From: Candidatus Chisholmbacteria bacterium RIFCSPLOWO2_01_FULL_49_14
Lineage (GTDB): Bacteria > Patescibacteriota > Microgenomatia > UBA1400 > Chisholmbacteraceae
Reading direction: 5' to 3'
NCBI GenBank assembly: GCA_001816915.1
Contig: MHCL01000011.1
Location: forward strand, 14,462 to 52,795
Length of the DNA stretch: 38,334 nucleotides
Shown: piece after piece, positions 1 to 17,231 of the stretch
Position numbering within the stretch: position 1 is the stretch's first letter
How the letters are laid out: every line of letters begins with the position of its first letter
Made by a program: the position numbers and the translations under genes
Notes under the pieces: generated by a model
What the model saw: the letters and a program-made list of their open reading frames with translations, nothing else
Databases searched by the model: none
What the model was told of the DNA's origin: nothing

Positions 1-144
1 GCTTCGCGCTGACTGCTTACCCGCTTCGACTCGAATCGAGGCGAGTTCAGCCGTATCGCGAGCCGGTCACTTCGGCGGACAGGCGTACGCGCCCGCCTGC
101 TCCCGAACATAGGGAGGGCGGGCAGGCCCGACCGACATGACTTG
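1..144. other. Non-coding, hairpin-rich flank of tRNA-Leu
   Basis: No credible gene is seen. The stretch holds GC-rich inverted repeats, for example CCCGCC..CTCCC at about 91-104 facing GGGAG-GGCGGG at about 112-122. CCGACATG just left of the tRNA at 132-139 is mirrored by CATGTCGG on its right side, so the tRNA sits at the tip of a larger inverted structure. The function is unknown; it resembles the palindromic spacer repeats seen elsewhere in the window. Confidence 0.4.
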
Positions 145-229
145 TGCCAGAGGTGGGAGTCGAACCCACACATCCTTGCGGATACACGGTTCTAAGCCGT
201 GCCTGTCTACCGGTTCCAGCACTCTGGCA
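145..229 (-). tRNA. tRNA-Leu(TAG)
   Basis: Type II tRNA on the minus strand. The 7-bp acceptor stem TGCCAGA/TCTGGCA is perfect. The anticodon arm CACGG-CTTAGAA-CCGTG gives anticodon TAG, followed by a long variable arm and a normal GGTTCGAC-type T-loop. No CCA is encoded. It reads CUA codons. Confidence 0.95.
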
Positions 230-252: not shown

Positions 253-282
253 CCCTGAAGTGAGCTTTGCTCTACTTTAGGG
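253..282. repeat. Strong hairpin next to tRNA-Leu
   Basis: CCCTGAAGTGAGC (253-265) pairs with GCTCTACTTTAGGG (269-282) through 13 base pairs, with one bulged T, one G-T wobble and a TTT loop. There is no T-run that would make it a clear terminator. It lies between tRNA-Leu and the palindrome at 286-303 and is probably one of the spacer repeats. Confidence 0.5.
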
Positions 283-285
283 TTC

Positions 286-303
286 CCTGCCTGCGCAGGC
301 AGG
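286..303. repeat. 18-bp GC-rich palindrome CCTGCCTGCGCAGGCAGG
   Basis: Perfect palindrome. The identical 18-mer recurs at 3695-3712. Close relatives are at 16170-16189 (20 bp) and 16680-16700 (21 bp, inside a gene). At three of the four places its insertion point can be read directly from the interrupted host sequence, so it behaves like a dispersed mobile palindrome. Confidence 0.8.
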
Positions 304-386
304 CGCCACCCCGGCATGAAATTGCTTGCGCGTCACCAGCGTATTTTATCGTTTTTCCGAGGTGAAATGAAGATGATGAGTGATTT

Positions 387-3682: not shown

Positions 3683-3735
3683 GCCGAGGTGGCGCCTGCC
3701 TGCGCAGGCAGGGAACTGGCCCGCCTCGAAGTGCC
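3683..3735 (+). pseudogene. tRNA-Leu 5' half interrupted by a palindrome
   Basis: GCCGAGGTGGCG (3683-3694) and GAACTGGC (3713-3720) join to give exactly the first 20 nt of the intact tRNA-Leu(GAG) at 3842. Between them lies the 18-bp palindrome CCTGCCTGCGCAGGCAGG, inserted in the 5' strand of the D-stem. Right after the 20 nt begins a second hairpin, CCCGCCT...AGGCGGG (3720-3751). The rest of the tRNA is not recognisable, so it cannot be functional. Confidence 0.8.
3695..3712. repeat. 18-bp palindrome inside tRNA-Leu relic
   Basis: Second perfect copy of the palindrome at 286-303. Removing it restores tRNA sequence with no extra or missing base. Confidence 0.85.
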
Positions 3736-3841
3736 CCGCTGGCAAGGCGGGCTCGCGATACTCGTATAAGAAAAAATCAAAGGTGAAGGAATTCGGCTGA
3801 TGAATCACTTTACATAACTTGAAAAGCAATCTAATAAACAG

Positions 3842-3925
3842 GCCGAGGTGGCGGAACTGGCAGACGCGCAGTCTTGAGGTGGCTGTGGGAGAAATCCTGT
3901 GGAGGTTCGAGTCCTCTCCTCGGCA
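3842..3925 (+). tRNA. tRNA-Leu(GAG)
   Basis: Type II tRNA. Acceptor GCCGAGG/CCTCGGC, anticodon arm CAGTC-TTGAGGT-GGCTG (GAG). A 5'-half relic of the same tRNA lies 120 bp upstream. Confidence 0.94.
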
Positions 3926-3950
3926 CAATTCCTGTTTGTAATCGAAAGAA

Positions 3951-6809: not shown

Positions 6810-6883
6810 TGCGGGGTCGTCTAATGGTAGGACACAGGCCTTTGAAGTCTGGTATGATGGTTCGAATCCATCCCCCGCAGCCA
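6810..6883 (+). tRNA. tRNA-Gln(TTG), CCA encoded
   Basis: Acceptor TGCGGGG/CCCCGCA, discriminator G, anticodon arm CAGGC-CTTTGAA-GTCTG (TTG). It is the only one of the 14 tRNAs here with a genomic CCA. That CCA is part of the GCCAG that begins the inverted repeat of the adjoining recombinase element. The recombinase reading frame runs antisense through the gene and stops in its D-loop region. Confidence 0.94.
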
Positions 6884-8377
6884 GTAAGAAGATGAAAGCC
6901 GCAAAGAGGTAGCGCTTTTCGCGCCCGCCTCCGCGGAAAGCGCGTCAAATCCGCCTTTTTTGAAACTTGCGGACAGCCGCCGATCAGTTAAAAAGAAGTT
7001 CGAGCCGACAGTTTTTGCCATGATTGATAAATCATGGCAACTATTTTTTGCGCGCGCGATTTTGTGCGCTGAAAGCGCGCTATTTACGAATTCCTGGAAA
7101 GGTTCGAGCCACTCAACGCCGTTTTGGGAAATTTCCTTAATTTTGGAGTTGAGAAGTGATTTTTTTTCTACCATTTCGTTTTTCTTCTTTTGATAATCTT
7201 CAGGGTTGATAATTTTGTCTAAATAGCCCTCGAGCAATCGGTCTAGTTTTTCTTCGGTTTCTTTCAATTGGAATTGATAAGTCGAGACAATCCCTGATGA
7301 TTTATCTTTTTCCTCATTTGCGTCTTTATCCGCCCATTCAAGAAACTTTTTGGCGGCGTGCGGGGGCAAAGAAGCTCGCAAAACAAGTTCTTTTAGTTGT
7401 TCCTCAATTTCCTCTTTATCAATATATTTTTGCGAGCAATTACCCATTTTTTTCGAGCAACGGTAGTAGATATACTCAACTTTTCTATTTGTCCGCTTGT
7501 AATACTTGGTATGTTTTTCTGCCGTGATTGCGCCGCCGCATTCGCCGCACTTAACTAATCCCAGAAAATCAAAAAAGTGTTTATTGTTTTTGACTTTGCG
7601 GCTTTTGAGTTTGACGACCGCTTGGCACTTATCAAAAAGTTTCTTGGAAATTAAGGGTGGATGTTTTCCTTCGTAGAGTTCGCCGCAAAATTTCATCACT
7701 CCATAGTAAAACGGATCAGTCAAAATTCTTTTGACTTTATCAAGGTGGAGTTCGTGACCGGACTTGTTGAAACTTTTATTTTGGTTGAAAAATTTGCGTA
7801 TATCCGCATATCCATAGCCGCCGGTTGCAAAAAGCTGAAAAGCTTTTTGCACATACTTGGCTCGTTTTTTATCAATTTCAATTTTCTTGTTGATGTTTAG
7901 ATAACCAAATGGGGCTTGATTCGGCCACTCGCCTCGGCGGAGTTTTTGGCGATTGCCACGCTTTACATTCTCGGAAAGATTATCAACATAATACTTAGAC
8001 TGATTAAATGCCATCCCTAACATAAACTTGCCTTGCGGTGTGTTCTCAAACCAGAAGCTAGGAAATTTCAGGTCAAGTAATTTTCCTGTATCTAATAAAT
8101 AGATAATCTTACCGCCATCAACAGAATTTCTGGCTAAACGGTCTGGATGCCACGAGATGATACCGGCGGCTTCGCCTCTTTCTATCATCTCTAAAACTTG
8201 AACAAATATTTCCCTTCCGGGTTCTTTAGCGGTTTTACTCTCGGTAATAAAAGAAACGATTTTCAAATTTTCTTTTGCGGCGTGTTCTTCGAGTTCTGCA
8301 ACTTGTGCCTCAATAGACAAAATTTGTCTGTCTGGTTCGTCTGTAGATTTCCTGCAATAAGCGATGTATTTAATCAT
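6821..8377 (-). CDS. Large serine recombinase
   Basis: 518 aa. The N-terminal resolvase domain opens with YIAYCRKSTDEPDRQ (catalytic Ser in CRKS, about residue 11) and keeps SWHPDRLARN with the catalytic Arg residues. Next come a recombinase domain (NQAPFGYLNI..., HLDKVKRILTDPFYYGVM) and a zinc ribbon (CGECGGAIT...YYRCSKK...C, about 280-320). A coiled-coil region and a conserved LGSN-like C-terminal block (VGSNFFLTDRRLSASF) follow. It catalyses site-specific DNA integration, excision or inversion through a phosphoserine link. About 33 C-terminal codons lie in the left 103-bp inverted repeat, and the last 20 or so are antisense to tRNA-Gln, which supplies the stop. AGGAG lies 14 nt before the start. 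The gene is visibly AT-richer than its neighbours, consistent with transfer. Confidence 0.92.
   Translation of the reverse strand: MIKYIAYCRKSTDEPDRQILSIEAQVAELEEHAAKENLKIVSFITESKTAKEPGREIFVQVLEMIERGEAAGIISWHPDRLARNSVDGGKIIYLLDTGKLLDLKFPSFWFENTPQGKFMLGMAFNQSKYYVDNLSENVKRGNRQKLRRGEWPNQAPFGYLNINKKIEIDKKRAKYVQKAFQLFATGGYGYADIRKFFNQNKSFNKSGHELHLDKVKRILTDPFYYGVMKFCGELYEGKHPPLISKKLFDKCQAVVKLKSRKVKNNKHFFDFLGLVKCGECGGAITAEKHTKYYKRTNRKVEYIYYRCSKKMGNCSQKYIDKEEIEEQLKELVLRASLPPHAAKKFLEWADKDANEEKDKSSGIVSTYQFQLKETEEKLDRLLEGYLDKIINPEDYQKKKNEMVEKKSLLNSKIKEISQNGVEWLEPFQEFVNSALSAHKIARAKNSCHDLSIMAKTVGSNFFLTDRRLSASFKKGGFDALSAEAGAKSATSLRLSSSYWLRGMDSNHHTRLQRPVSYH
6880..6982 (+). repeat. Inverted repeat IR1, left arm (103 bp)
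   Basis: Aligns without gaps to the reverse complement of 8479-8581 with about nine mismatches. It begins with the tRNA-Gln discriminator and CCA (GCCAG) and runs into recombinase C-terminal coding sequence. Confidence 0.93.
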
Positions 8378-8427
8378 ATTTTTTTATATTATCTCCTAAA
8401 AGTTCTTTAAGCGAATGATAGTGAGCA

Positions 8428-8455
8428 GGGCTTCTTTCCAAGAAGCCCAATTTTT
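8428..8455 (+). terminator. Rho-independent terminator-like hairpin
   Basis: GGGCTTCTT-TCC-AAGAAGCCC followed by AATTTTT: a 9-bp stem, 3-nt loop and T-run on the plus strand. It sits just upstream of the leftward recombinase gene and faces away from it, so it would block transcription leaving the element rather than end a visible gene. Confidence 0.6.
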
Positions 8456-8478
8456 GCGTTTTTTCTTCTTTCTTTTTC

Positions 8479-8581
8479 CGGCGGCTGTCCGCAAGTTTCA
8501 GAAAAGGCGGATTTGACGTGCTTTCCGCGGAGGCGGGCGCGGAAAGCGCTACCTCTCGACGGCTTTCTTCTCTTTACTGGC
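8479..8581 (-). repeat. Inverted repeat IR1, right arm (103 bp)
   Basis: Partner of 6880-6982. It ends in CTGGC at 8577-8581 and overlaps the next repeat, IR2, by two bases. Confidence 0.93.
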
Positions 8582-10744: not shown

Positions 10745-10774
10745 GCCGCGGTGCTGGGAGCGACTTGGTAGACA
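10745..10774 (+). pseudogene. Decayed tRNA-Leu 5' half before HNH gene
   Basis: GCCGCGG-TG has the acceptor-plus-TG form of the local tRNA-Leu genes. GCG-ACTTGGTAGAC resembles their D-arm (GCG-GAACTGGCAGAC), with six extra bases (CTGGGA) in the D-stem. No matching 3' half is present. The similarity is weaker than in the other tRNA relics. Confidence 0.45.
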
Positions 10775-10821
10775 TGGAGGACAAGGTTGCAAAAGCGTTT
10801 GCCAAATGGTAGGCTCGGATC

Positions 10822-11289
10822 GTGAAGACCAGAACCTGGACAGAATCACAATTACGTCGAGCAGTAAAGAACTCGAGAAGTATTCGGCAGGTTCTAAAAG
10901 CACTGAAACTTCGAGAGGCCGGAGGCAACTATGCACAGATCAAGAAGTATTTGCACTTTTATAAAGTGGACACATCTCATATTAAAGGTAGGGGTTGGAA
11001 TAAAGGGTTAAGAGGAACTGGACATCCAAAACTTTCGCTTGCGGAAATACTCGTACGCGGGAGCACTTTTCAGAGTTATAAATTAAGAAATCGCTTATTC
11101 TTGTCAGAAATCAAAGCGAAGCATTGTGAAAAGTGTGGTTGGGCTGAGAGGTCTTTGGATGGCCGTCTTCCTCTTGAACTTGATCATATCAACGGAGATA
11201 GCACCGATAATCGTTTGAGCAACTTACGGATTCTCTGTCCCAATTGTCATAGCCTTCAGCCTACCCATCGCGGCAGAAACAGAAAATAA
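10822..11289 (+). CDS. HNH endonuclease beside tRNA-Leu(TAA)
   Basis: 155 aa, GTG start (an in-frame TAG lies four codons upstream). The N-terminal region TWTESQLRRAVKNSRSI...GGNYAQIKKYL is a helix-turn-helix-like DNA-binding part typical of small free-standing HNH proteins. The nuclease has CEKC (102-105), LELDHINGD (118-126), N130 and N134, and CPNC (139-142), giving a zinc-stabilised HNH fold. It probably nicks or cuts DNA as a homing-type enzyme. The stop lies 3 nt before tRNA-Leu(TAA), and a tRNA-Leu-like 5' relic lies just upstream, the same arrangement as the GIY-YIG gene at tRNA-His. Confidence 0.88.
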   Translation: MKTRTWTESQLRRAVKNSRSIRQVLKALKLREAGGNYAQIKKYLHFYKVDTSHIKGRGWNKGLRGTGHPKLSLAEILVRGSTFQSYKLRNRLFLSEIKAKHCEKCGWAERSLDGRLPLELDHINGDSTDNRLSNLRILCPNCHSLQPTHRGRNRK

Positions 11290-11292
11290 TGT

Positions 11293-11378
11293 GGTCCGGT
11301 GGTGAAACTGGTATACACGCAGCACTTAAAATGCTGTCCCTTATAAGAGGGGTGTGGGTTCGAATCCCACCCGGACCA
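11293..11378 (+). tRNA. tRNA-Leu(TAA)
   Basis: Type II tRNA. Acceptor GGTCCGG/CCGGACC, anticodon arm CAGCA-CTTAAAA-TGCTG (TAA). Confidence 0.95.
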
Positions 11379-11408
11379 CTATTGGAGATTGACTCAAATC
11401 CAACTGTT

Positions 11409-11719: not shown

Positions 11720-11790
11720 GCGGGATTAGTTGATCGGCTCAACATTTGCTTTCCAAGCAAAAAAGAGGGGTTCGACTCCCCTATCCCGCT
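11720..11790 (+). tRNA. tRNA-Gly(TCC)
   Basis: Acceptor GCGGGAT/ATCCCGC, anticodon arm TTTGC-TTTCCAA-GCAAA (TCC). Its last 17 nt plus one base are repeated at 12119-12136, beyond a GIY-YIG gene. Confidence 0.95.
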
Positions 11791-11822
11791 CCCGTCTTTC
11801 GCTAAAGCTACAGACGGTAGCA

Positions 11823-12071
11823 ATGTATTACGTTTATATACTAAAGAGTTTAAAATCTGGTGTTCTTTATTACGGTTATACAGAGGATCTTAGAAAAAGA
11901 GTTAGAGAACATAACACTGGTAAATCTAAGTTTACAAAAGGTCTTATGCCTTGGAAATTAGTATGGTATTCTGCTTTTAAAGGCGTACGGAAGGCTAAAG
12001 ATTTTGAACTCTACATTAAATCAGGATCCGGCAAAGCCTTTGTGTATAAAAGATTAGTGGATGTAACTTGA
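11823..12071 (+). CDS. Small GIY-YIG nuclease-family protein
   Basis: 82 aa, a single domain. YVY (3-5) and YYG (16-18) stand in the GIY and YIG places, followed by the helix Arg residues LRKRVREHN, W44 and the AKDFELYIK block with the metal-binding Glu. This is the free-standing GIY-YIG type (UPF0213/COG2827-like). Known members are structure- or sequence-selective nucleases; its own target is unknown. It lies 32 nt after tRNA-Gly(TCC), inside direct and inverted repeats, which suggests it acts on this tRNA locus. The GIY-YIG gene beside tRNA-His has the same length. Confidence 0.85.
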   Translation: MYYVYILKSLKSGVLYYGYTEDLRKRVREHNTGKSKFTKGLMPWKLVWYSAFKGVRKAKDFELYIKSGSGKAFVYKRLVDVT

Positions 12072-12118
12072 AAGAAAAACGGCAGTGAAGATAGAGGTGT
12101 TCCGAAGCTTTAGCGAAG

Positions 12119-12136
12119 GACTCCCCTATCCCGCTC
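12119..12136 (+). repeat. Duplicated 3' end of tRNA-Gly(TCC)
   Basis: Exact 18-bp copy of 11774-11791. It lacks the rest of the tRNA. Confidence 0.9.
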
Positions 12137-14778: not shown

Positions 14779-14870
14779 GCGCCCATAGCCCCGCGTGCCA
14801 TTGCCTGAGGCATGGACTTTGGCGGGCAGGTCAGTGGATAGAGCACCTGTCTTCCCCGCCTGCAAGTGCC
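14779..14870 (+). pseudogene. tRNA 5' half with palindromic insertion, upstream of tRNA-Arg
   Basis: GCGCCCATAGC (14779-14789) and TCAGTGGATAGAGCACCTGT plus CTTCC (14831-14855) join into a normal tRNA 5' half, similar to tRNA-Arg(TCT) at 14883. Between them lies a 41-nt hairpin segment (14790-14830, CCCGC..GCGGGCAGG outer arms, TGCCTGAGGCA core), inserted after tRNA position 11. The half ends at position 36, followed by CCCGCCTGCAAGTGCC (14855-14870), nearly the same element that follows the tRNA-Leu relic at 3720-3735. Confidence 0.72.
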
Positions 14871-14882
14871 TTGAGCGAGGAA

Positions 14883-14954
14883 GCCGCCATAGCTCAACGG
14901 ATAGAGCAACCGCCTTCTAAGCGGTAGATGAAGGTTCGATTCCTTCTGGTGGCA
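14883..14954 (+). tRNA. tRNA-Arg(TCT)
   Basis: Acceptor GCCGCCA/TGGTGGC with one G-U pair, anticodon arm ACCGC-CTTCTAA-GCGGT (TCT). Confidence 0.94.
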
Positions 14955-16154: not shown

Positions 16155-16204
16155 TATGGTGGCCGTAGCCCTGCCTGCCGGCAGGCAGGTCAGCGGTAGA
16201 GCAT
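16155..16204 (+). pseudogene. Duplicated tRNA-His 5' half with 20-bp palindrome
   Basis: 16155-16169 plus 16190-16204 match 16452-16481, the 5' part of tRNA-His with its flank, at 28 of 30 positions. The perfect palindrome CCTGCCTGCCGGCAGGCAGG (16170-16189) is inserted after tRNA position 11. The copy ends exactly at the ATG of the GIY-YIG gene, whose first two start-codon bases are tRNA sequence. Confidence 0.85.
16170..16189. repeat. 20-bp GC-rich palindrome
   Basis: Perfect palindrome of the same family as 286-303, 3695-3712 and 16680-16700. Confidence 0.88.
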
Positions 16205-16451
16205 GAGATATTACGCTTACATTCTGAAAAGTCTTAAAGACGGCAAGTGTTATACAGGAATTACGAATGATCTAATAAGAAGGATCAATCAACATCAATT
16301 GGGTGATGAAGCCACGCCATCGACACTGAATAGAGGTCCATTTAAGTTAATTCATGCAGAGGAGTGCGAAAATCGGCTGGTAGCAAGAAAAAGGGAGAAG
16401 TACTGGAAAAGTGGATATGGAAGAGAGTTAAGAGAGAGACTGTTTGGTTGA
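16203..16451 (+). CDS. Small GIY-YIG nuclease-family protein in duplicated tRNA-His
   Basis: 82 aa. YAY (4-6) and YTG (17-19) replace GIY and YIG. Then come the LIRRINQHQ helix, a conserved mid-region (TLNRGPFKLIHAEE) and KREKYWKSGYGRE with the catalytic-type Glu. It is a free-standing UPF0213/COG2827-type domain, the same length as the gene at tRNA-Gly. The gene lies precisely between a copied tRNA-His 5' half and the intact tRNA-His: its stop is 3 nt before the tRNA. The position suggests a homing-like nuclease specific for tRNA genes. Confidence 0.86.
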   Translation: MRYYAYILKSLKDGKCYTGITNDLIRRINQHQLGDEATPSTLNRGPFKLIHAEECENRLVARKREKYWKSGYGRELRERLFG

Positions 16452-16454
16452 TAT

Positions 16455-16527
16455 GGTGGCCGTAGCTCAACGGCAGAGCATCGCCCTGTGGAGGCGAATG
16501 TTGCGGGTTCGATTCCCGTCGGCCACC
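16455..16527 (+). tRNA. tRNA-His(GTG)
   Basis: Acceptor GTGGCCG/CGGCCAC with the extra G-1 (16455) opposite C73 expected for His. Anticodon arm TCGCC-CTGTGGA-GGCGA (GTG). Confidence 0.95.
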
Positions 16528-16598
16528 CAAAAATTGAATTTAGAATCCTCTGCTTTTAGAATGTTAATTTAAAATAATGACTAAATACATATCATTGT

Positions 16599-16637: not shown

Positions 16638-17231
16638 ATGTCAAACGTTGAAACAAAAAAGGAGTTGTCACCAGAACAACCTGCCTTGCCGGCAGGCAGG
16701 CGTGAGGAACTGATCAACGCATTAAAAGCCCGTTTTGAGAAAAACATGAACCGTCATAAAGGTCTTGAATGGGCTAAAGTACAAGCAAAGCTGGACGCCA
16801 ATGCCGGGAAACTGTGGTCGCTCTATGAAATGGAAAGAACCGGCGGTGAACCAGATGTTGTAGGTCGTGATTCTAAGACAGGCGAATACATTTTTTATGA
16901 CTGCTGCGCGGAAAGTCCTAAAGGCCGCAGAAGTGTTTGTTACGACCGCGAAGCGCTGGAGTCACGGAAAGAACATAAACCGGAAAATAACGCTATTGAT
17001 ATGGCTGCTGCCATGGGCATTGAACTTTTATCGGAAGAACAATATCGAGAGTTGCAGAAACTCGGAAAATTCGATACGAAAACGTCGAGCTGGGTGAAAA
17101 CACCTTCTGATATTAGAAAACTCGGCGGCGCTATCTTTGCTGATTTCCGCTACGGCAATGTCTTCGTGTCTCACAACGGTGCAGAATCTTACTATGCCGT
17201 TAGGGCGTTCCGTGGCTCGCTAAGGGTCTAA
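16638..17231 (+). CDS. DUF4256 protein with palindrome-encoded insertion
   Basis: 197 aa. The body matches the DUF4256 family (ALKARFEKNMNRHKGLEW, ERTGGEPDVVG, YIFYDCCAESPKGRRS, ENNAIDMAAAMGIELLSE, GGAIFADFRYGNVFVSHNGA). The function of the family is not known. Between ELSPEQ and REEL, 21 bases (16680-16700) of the dispersed palindrome family add exactly seven codons (P-A-L-P-A-G-R). Removing them gives a continuous EQREELINALKARF. The frame is kept, so the gene may still work. No ribosome site is visible. Confidence 0.85.
   Translation: MSNVETKKELSPEQPALPAGRREELINALKARFEKNMNRHKGLEWAKVQAKLDANAGKLWSLYEMERTGGEPDVVGRDSKTGEYIFYDCCAESPKGRRSVCYDREALESRKEHKPENNAIDMAAAMGIELLSEEQYRELQKLGKFDTKTSSWVKTPSDIRKLGGAIFADFRYGNVFVSHNGAESYYAVRAFRGSLRV

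Follow-up and report, generated by a model that had tools for sequence, protein, structure and literature searches.

The window, a 38,334-nt stretch of a Candidatus Chisholmbacteria genome (1.21 Mb in 29 contigs, about 49% G+C; 75 bases of contig 8 left out), contains an intact tRNA-Leu(GAG) gene that is preceded on the same strand by an interrupted copy of its own 5′ end (Table 1). With positions 3695–3712 taken out, the fragment at 3683–3720 reads GCCGAGGTGGCGGAACTGGC and matches the 5′ start of the tRNA-Leu(GAG) gene at 3842 in 20/20 nt, so that a duplicated host-gene end lies beside one intact copy, in strict polarity; the precise interruption and the coordinates given for it in an earlier note on this DNA are both correct. 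The 18 bases taken out, CCTGCCTGCGCAGGCAGG, are their own reverse complement, making a perfect 18-bp palindrome that breaks the fragment within its D-stem. The window holds two copies of this sequence (shuffles predict 0). The edge of the palindrome can be drawn in two ways, one base apart, which puts the insertion between tRNA positions 11 and 12 or between 12 and 13. The 121-nt spacer at 3721–3841 has no convincing ORF and no recognisable nuclease remnant. A second hairpin, which the earlier note placed at nt 21, can form by pairing 3719–3725 with 3746–3752, but the minimum-energy fold differs, pairing 3719–3729 with the 5′ strand of the fragment and placing a hairpin at ∼3734–3751. When plasmids were searched for sequence similar to the site, the tRNA alone was matched. 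A group I intron in tRNA-Leu was rejected, as the only Rfam families found in the window are tRNAs and the insert, in a copy that is incomplete, occupies the D-stem and not the anticodon loop. A split or intron-containing tRNA was likewise rejected: the interrupted Leu copy comprises nt 1–20 only, and the intact gene follows 121 nt downstream.

Table 1. tRNA genes, tRNA fragments, palindromes and nuclease genes in the window
Feature	Position	Strand	Basis
tRNA-Leu(GAG) 5′ fragment, nt 1–12	3683–3694	+	identical to 3842–3853
18-bp perfect palindrome CCTGCCTGCGCAGGCAGG in D-stem of fragment	3695–3712	+	self-complementarity; window and genome copies
tRNA-Leu(GAG) fragment, nt 13–20	3713–3720	+	identical to 3854–3861
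Spacer with GC-rich hairpin, lacking a convincing ORF; presumably the interior of a decayed element	3721–3841	+	ORF and fold inspection
Intact tRNA-Leu(GAG), read as regenerated copy	3842–3926	+	ARAGORN and Rfam
Second tRNA-Leu 5′ fragment GCCGGGGTGGCG	304–315	-	sequence comparison
Second palindrome copy, tRNA position as in first	286–303	-	exact match
GAACC continuation of second Leu fragment, then second hairpin	281–285	-	sequence comparison
Intact tRNA-Leu(TAG)	144–228	-	ARAGORN
tRNA-Arg 5′ fragment GCGCCCATAGC, 41-nt insert (14790–14830), TCAGTGGATAGAGC..., upstream of intact tRNA-Arg(TCT) at 14883	14779–14854	+	sequence comparison
tRNA-His 5′ fragment with palindrome CCTGCCTGCCGGCAGGCAGG (16170–16189) between nt 11 and 12	16159–16203	+	sequence comparison
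GIY-YIG nuclease gene between tRNA-His fragment and intact tRNA-His (16456–16528)	16203–16451	+	PF01541, E 3e-16
GIY-YIG nuclease gene downstream of intact tRNA-Gly(TCC) (11720–11792); mirror-image (3′) type	11823–12071	+	PF01541, E 3e-16
tRNA-Gly(TCC) 3′ fragment, begins at T-loop	12119–12136	+	18/18 identity
tRNA-Leu 5′ fragment GCCGCGGTG.., upstream of HNH ORF (10822–11289) and intact tRNA-Leu(TAA) (11293–11379)	10745–10778	+	

The site is one of several in the window at which part of a tRNA gene lies beside an intact tRNA gene. The copy of the 18-mer at 286–303, which the earlier note had correctly reported as identical while missing where it stands, interrupts a second 5′ fragment of tRNA-Leu at the same tRNA position; this minus-strand fragment is 57 nt upstream of the intact tRNA-Leu(TAG) and matches that neighbour at 13/17 positions. 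At tRNA-His (16159–16528) the order is fragment with palindrome, GIY-YIG gene and intact tRNA. At tRNA-Gly(TCC) (11720–12136) the arrangement is the mirror image, with the intact tRNA followed by a GIY-YIG gene and a 3′ fragment. At tRNA-Leu(TAA) (10745–11379) an HNH gene separates the 5′ fragment from the intact tRNA. An endonuclease ORF between the dead and intact parts is thus present at tRNA-His and tRNA-Gly, as it is in relatives, and absent at the Leu(GAG) site; the earlier note was right that no nuclease gene is found there, and many such fragments are likewise without one. In the genome as a whole, sequences repeating the first 11 nt of a tRNA (at most one mismatch) are found upstream of that tRNA only, for six tRNAs where 0.33 would be expected (the Phe case could be a cross-match to a Leu fragment), and copies of tRNA 3′ ends occur downstream only, two against 0.03 expected.

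Some of the fragments point to replacement of the tRNA and not just its duplication, in that they resemble a tRNA other than the intact one beside them. The Leu(TAA) fragment, beginning GCCGCGG, resembles the tRNA-Leu(TAA) at the syntenic place in genome G002, and the intact copy here begins GGTCCGG. Similarly, the Arg(TCT) fragment GCGCCCATAGC matches the tRNA-Arg(TCT) of genome G004 and the intact copy here differs; G002 has a related Arg fragment in which the insert has diverged. At another locus (L277), a GIY-YIG gene and a complete tRNA-Val are bracketed by the complementary 5′ and 3′ halves of a different, older tRNA-Val; the 5′ half there has no hairpin. In the present genome, tRNA-Val(GAC) and tRNA-Val(CAC) each likewise sit inside a pair of outer pieces whose acceptor strands are complementary. 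At L049 (G000:C11:9700–10030), tRNA-Val(GAC) stands between two pieces of another tRNA, with acceptor strands GGGCGGA and TCCGCCC; CCTGCC..GGCAGG inverted repeats flank the spacer and a hairpin insert occupies the outer D-stem. In relatives of different genera, the syntenic tRNA-Leu(GAG) has no fragment (G001) or a 24-nt fragment with no insert between nt 11 and 12 (G002).

Small GIY-YIG genes are associated with tRNA genes well beyond this genome. Across 20 genomes of the same order, 17 of 28 such genes are within 250 nt of a tRNA gene, and all 17 are on its strand. Most of the tRNA-adjacent genes in this sample have a partial tRNA copy on their far side, which is a 5′ copy if the tRNA is downstream and a 3′ copy if it is upstream, with one or two exceptions that are weak matches. 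In a sample from the phylum the association is seen for 7/24 genes, again on the same strand in all. Two 3′-type GIY-YIG elements (L077 and L260) have terminal inverted repeats like TCTTTCGC(T)AAAGC and GCTTTAGCGAAAGA adjoining the tRNA copies. At L282 a tRNA-Tyr 5′ fragment occurs twice, on either side of the GIY-YIG gene, and the hairpin TCCCGCCAACGGCGGGA replaces part of the anticodon arm.

The dead half at these loci typically carries a hairpin. Among GIY-YIG loci with an intact tRNA downstream, counted by eye from the printed sequence, a hairpin-like insert breaks the dead 5′ half in 7/8 of the order sample and 5/6 of the phylum sample, i.e. 12/14. The other two have no hairpin in the fragment, one of them having no recognisable fragment, so that the hairpin is not strictly required. 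Sequences of the inserts range over a CCCGCCTGC..GCGGGCAGG family, CCTGCC palindromes and several unrelated hairpins (e.g., a 12-bp stem at L251). P-type palindromes accompany GIY-YIG genes at L082, L087, L093, L111, L126, L147 and L232. The insert is in the arm closest to the inner end of the fragment; besides the D-stem, the T-loop or the anticodon arm can host it. Compared with shuffles, folding of the inserts gives z below -3 for some, moderate values for others and no significance for a few (z -0.5 to -1.2). The earlier note had held that palindromes and tRNA copying can be separated from nuclease genes, a view not supported in that form by the 14 loci still possessing a GIY-YIG gene upstream of the tRNA, 12 of which have the hairpin. 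As the hairpin is nearly always there where a GIY-YIG gene persists, sites without a nuclease are better read as decayed members. The palindrome itself had been called mobile, and this is probably right because the repeat occurs elsewhere; however, it is not special, in that unrelated hairpins occupy the same place.

Three further loci stood out. At L083, the promoter, tRNA 5′ half and second hairpin are tandemly repeated upstream of tRNA-Pro, with the palindrome in the first copy only. A complete tRNA-Ile(TAT) with the palindrome in its D-stem lies close to an intact tRNA-Ile(TAT) at L089. A cluster at L096 (G332:C3:196613–196714 and 196799–196860) contains a complete tRNA-like copy whose D-stem holds a palindrome and whose anticodon loop is odd, as well as another tRNA, 102 nt long, that has an anticodon-loop hairpin and still scores above the Rfam cut-off. 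BLAST found no second copy of the complete tRNA-like sequence. We rejected it as a functional interrupted tRNA, because its G33 and TTA anticodon point towards a pseudogene.

We consider the Leu(GAG) site to be the scar of a small homing-type element that invades and regenerates tRNA genes, with the hairpin protecting the occupied locus, and assign this reading a probability of roughly 0.6. A GIY-YIG (sometimes HNH) endonuclease gene would enter a tRNA gene, and the inserted DNA would bring or copy the severed part of the tRNA, or a whole replacement tRNA, so that an intact tRNA is regenerated. The dead half would stay with the native flank, which puts a 5′ half upstream or, in the mirror-image type, a 3′ half downstream, and one of its tRNA arms would hold a hairpin. 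The probable effect of this hairpin is to disrupt the nuclease target in the one copy retaining the native flank, making the occupied locus safe from its own nuclease. The intact downstream copy would also have to escape cleavage, and our assumption here is a target that includes the native leader. At the Leu(GAG) site and at the second Leu fragment (3683–3841 and 228–315), the nuclease gene would have been lost, leaving only a hairpin-broken half and a spacer. The palindrome, which belongs to a dispersed Patescibacteria repeat family, would be one of several interchangeable hairpins. Without a nuclease gene, the Leu(GAG) site lacks one defining feature of a gene-regenerating homing-endonuclease insertion, and we therefore file it as a probable scar and not as a member. 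More tentatively, and with the odds somewhat against it, the same events may define a widespread, undescribed Patescibacterial class in which GIY-YIG/HNH elements home into tRNA genes, supply replacement tRNAs (part or whole) and inactivate the leftover target with interchangeable self-protection hairpins, many tRNA genes having been replaced by selfish DNA.

The main rival holds that the palindrome has no role: a dispersed repeat would often insert into tRNA-like DNA, and because insertions into working tRNAs are lethal, survivors would be seen only in spare tRNA fragments. The palindrome is indeed dispersed. In this genome, CCTGCCTGCGCAGGCAGG occurs three times exactly and once with a single mismatch (reversed control, 0), and two of the three exact copies are in tRNA-Leu 5′ fragments. 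The wider pattern CCTGCC(0–16)GGCAGG occurs at 11 genome loci, four of which (two Leu, one His and one Thr) are tRNA 5′ fragments that share this point of interruption in the D-stem, with a rough binomial probability of ∼1e-15. A scan of 84,980 genomes, with the position fixed by the query, found the palindrome inside the D-stem, between TAGC and TCAG, at 31 loci. Every informative name among these is of the candidate phyla (Patescibacteria), from Peribacteria to Yanofskybacteria, a few being named only ‘bacterium’. In nearly all, an intact tRNA on the same strand follows within ∼300 nt downstream. The fragment usually starts at most a few bases from the tRNA 5′ end and stops 4–24 nt beyond the palindrome.

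Because that scan fixed the position, we also sampled the 20-mer without context. It has 278 copies in 65/286 genomes of the phylum (reversed control, none). Of 82 context-free copies read, ∼90% are outside tRNA pieces and ∼9 are inside them, in the D-arm, T-loop, anticodon arm or acceptor. The dispersal, the variety of sites and the near absence of target duplication at non-tRNA copies all favour a roleless palindrome. Nevertheless, 11/82 copies are within 80 nt of a tRNA against ∼0.9 expected (p ∼1e-9). Random placement, which the earlier note had named as the outcome that would count against it, is excluded by this excess and by the 4/11 genome loci at the D-stem junction; the D-stem is one of several sites. 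Neutral insertion accounts for the dispersed copies but not for the recurrence of unrelated hairpins in the dead halves of 12/14 5′-type nuclease loci, and we regard it as unlikely.

Two further properties of palindrome insertion were considered and rejected. A preference for hairpin-loop targets is not borne out: dyad symmetry in the flanks shows no excess (at least 5 of 6 positions paired in 4 cases against 4.6 expected), and base preferences are weak. Nor is the target generally duplicated on insertion, since nearly all duplicated targets among ∼80 unbiased copies are tRNA pieces; an intact copy of the target lies nearby almost solely for palindromes in tRNA pieces.

A less probable alternative makes the hairpin the terminus of the element, which would have inserted at the hairpin position and carried tRNA nt 12 onward behind it. 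At L090, 24 nt to the right of the palindrome match the intact tRNA and the left part differs, as this would predict. However, at tRNA-His in the window the intact tRNA is not matched by the right part, divergence is in any case faster in the acceptor stem than in the D-arm, and the hairpin sequences are not conserved, unlike the usual ends of elements. Least probable of all, and without general support in equilibrium folding tests (which ignore co-transcriptional folding and RNase P), is a role in RNA, whereby the hairpin keeps the dead 5′ half from competing for the 3′ half of the intact tRNA or folds the half away: at Leu(GAG), predicted acceptor pairing is 0.65 with the palindrome and 0.02 without it, and pairing of the fragment with its own spacer exceeds that in 58/60 shuffles, but removal has no effect over 35 loci (0.30 vs 0.30, p 0.5) and self-pairing over 31 loci equals that with shuffled spacers (0.58 vs 0.57).

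The scar reading has parallels in several known systems. Gene-regenerating mORF insertions in fungal mitochondria (Allomyces atp6; Glomus atp6, atp9, cox2 and nad3) likewise comprise an endonuclease ORF (LAGLIDADG or GIY-YIG) inserted with a replacement gene end, leaving the native end as a dead duplicate (PMC3630166). A tRNA host gene, a bacterial host, the occurrence of both 5′ and 3′ forms and a hairpin in the dead piece distinguish the loci described here. SegB, a free-standing GIY-YIG homing endonuclease of T-even phages, adjoins tRNA genes and cuts inside tRNA genes at the motif RAWTSGAAC, according to the available part of PMC13096335; it is a phage gene, and that part describes no hairpin-broken tRNA halves. 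On the other strand this motif resembles the T-loop, and it matches 16/37 tRNAs of the present genome. The 3′ fragments and T-loop palindromes are located between TTC and GA.

For the palindrome, the closest likeness is to Rickettsia palindromic elements (RPEs), which are short dispersed palindromes in a reduced bacterial genome, some of them within genes (PMC2635572). The palindrome shares with them dispersed copies in intergenic and coding DNA, but the 18/20-mer is shorter, is unrelated in sequence as far as known, and concentrates at tRNA pieces and close to nuclease genes. Mitochondrial hairpin elements (DHE/RHE) are similarly short, presumably mobile and sometimes double; they are organellar, and the available part of PMC2800124 reports no tRNA-half architecture. 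Insertion sequences in CPR rRNA genes are also found in Patescibacteria and some encode GIY-YIG proteins, whereas they occupy rRNA genes and are mostly introns, and the main text makes no mention of tRNA (PMC11270868). For Patescibacteria, the open-licence literature searched yielded no account of tRNA genes containing palindromes or GIY-YIG genes.

If the proposed cycle is true, homing-type elements repeatedly invade the essential tRNA genes of a huge and mostly uncultured group of bacteria, replacing tRNAs in part or in whole. Free-standing GIY-YIG genes, tRNA fragments and the dispersed palindromes would then be tied together in a single cycle that assigns the hairpin a testable role, and annotators would gain a rule for spotting tRNA pseudo-halves.

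Two other features of the window are worth recording. A near-palindrome, CCTGCCTTGCCGGCAGGCAGG, lies at 16681–16701 within a coding frame (reading ..PALPAGR..), and the repeat therefore enters genes too. A large serine recombinase gene (PF00239/PF07508) at 6821–8560 begins at the 3′ part of tRNA-Gln(TTG) (6810–6883) and is bounded by inverted repeats at 6914–6943 and 8520–8549; it looks like an element integrated at tRNA-Gln(TTG).
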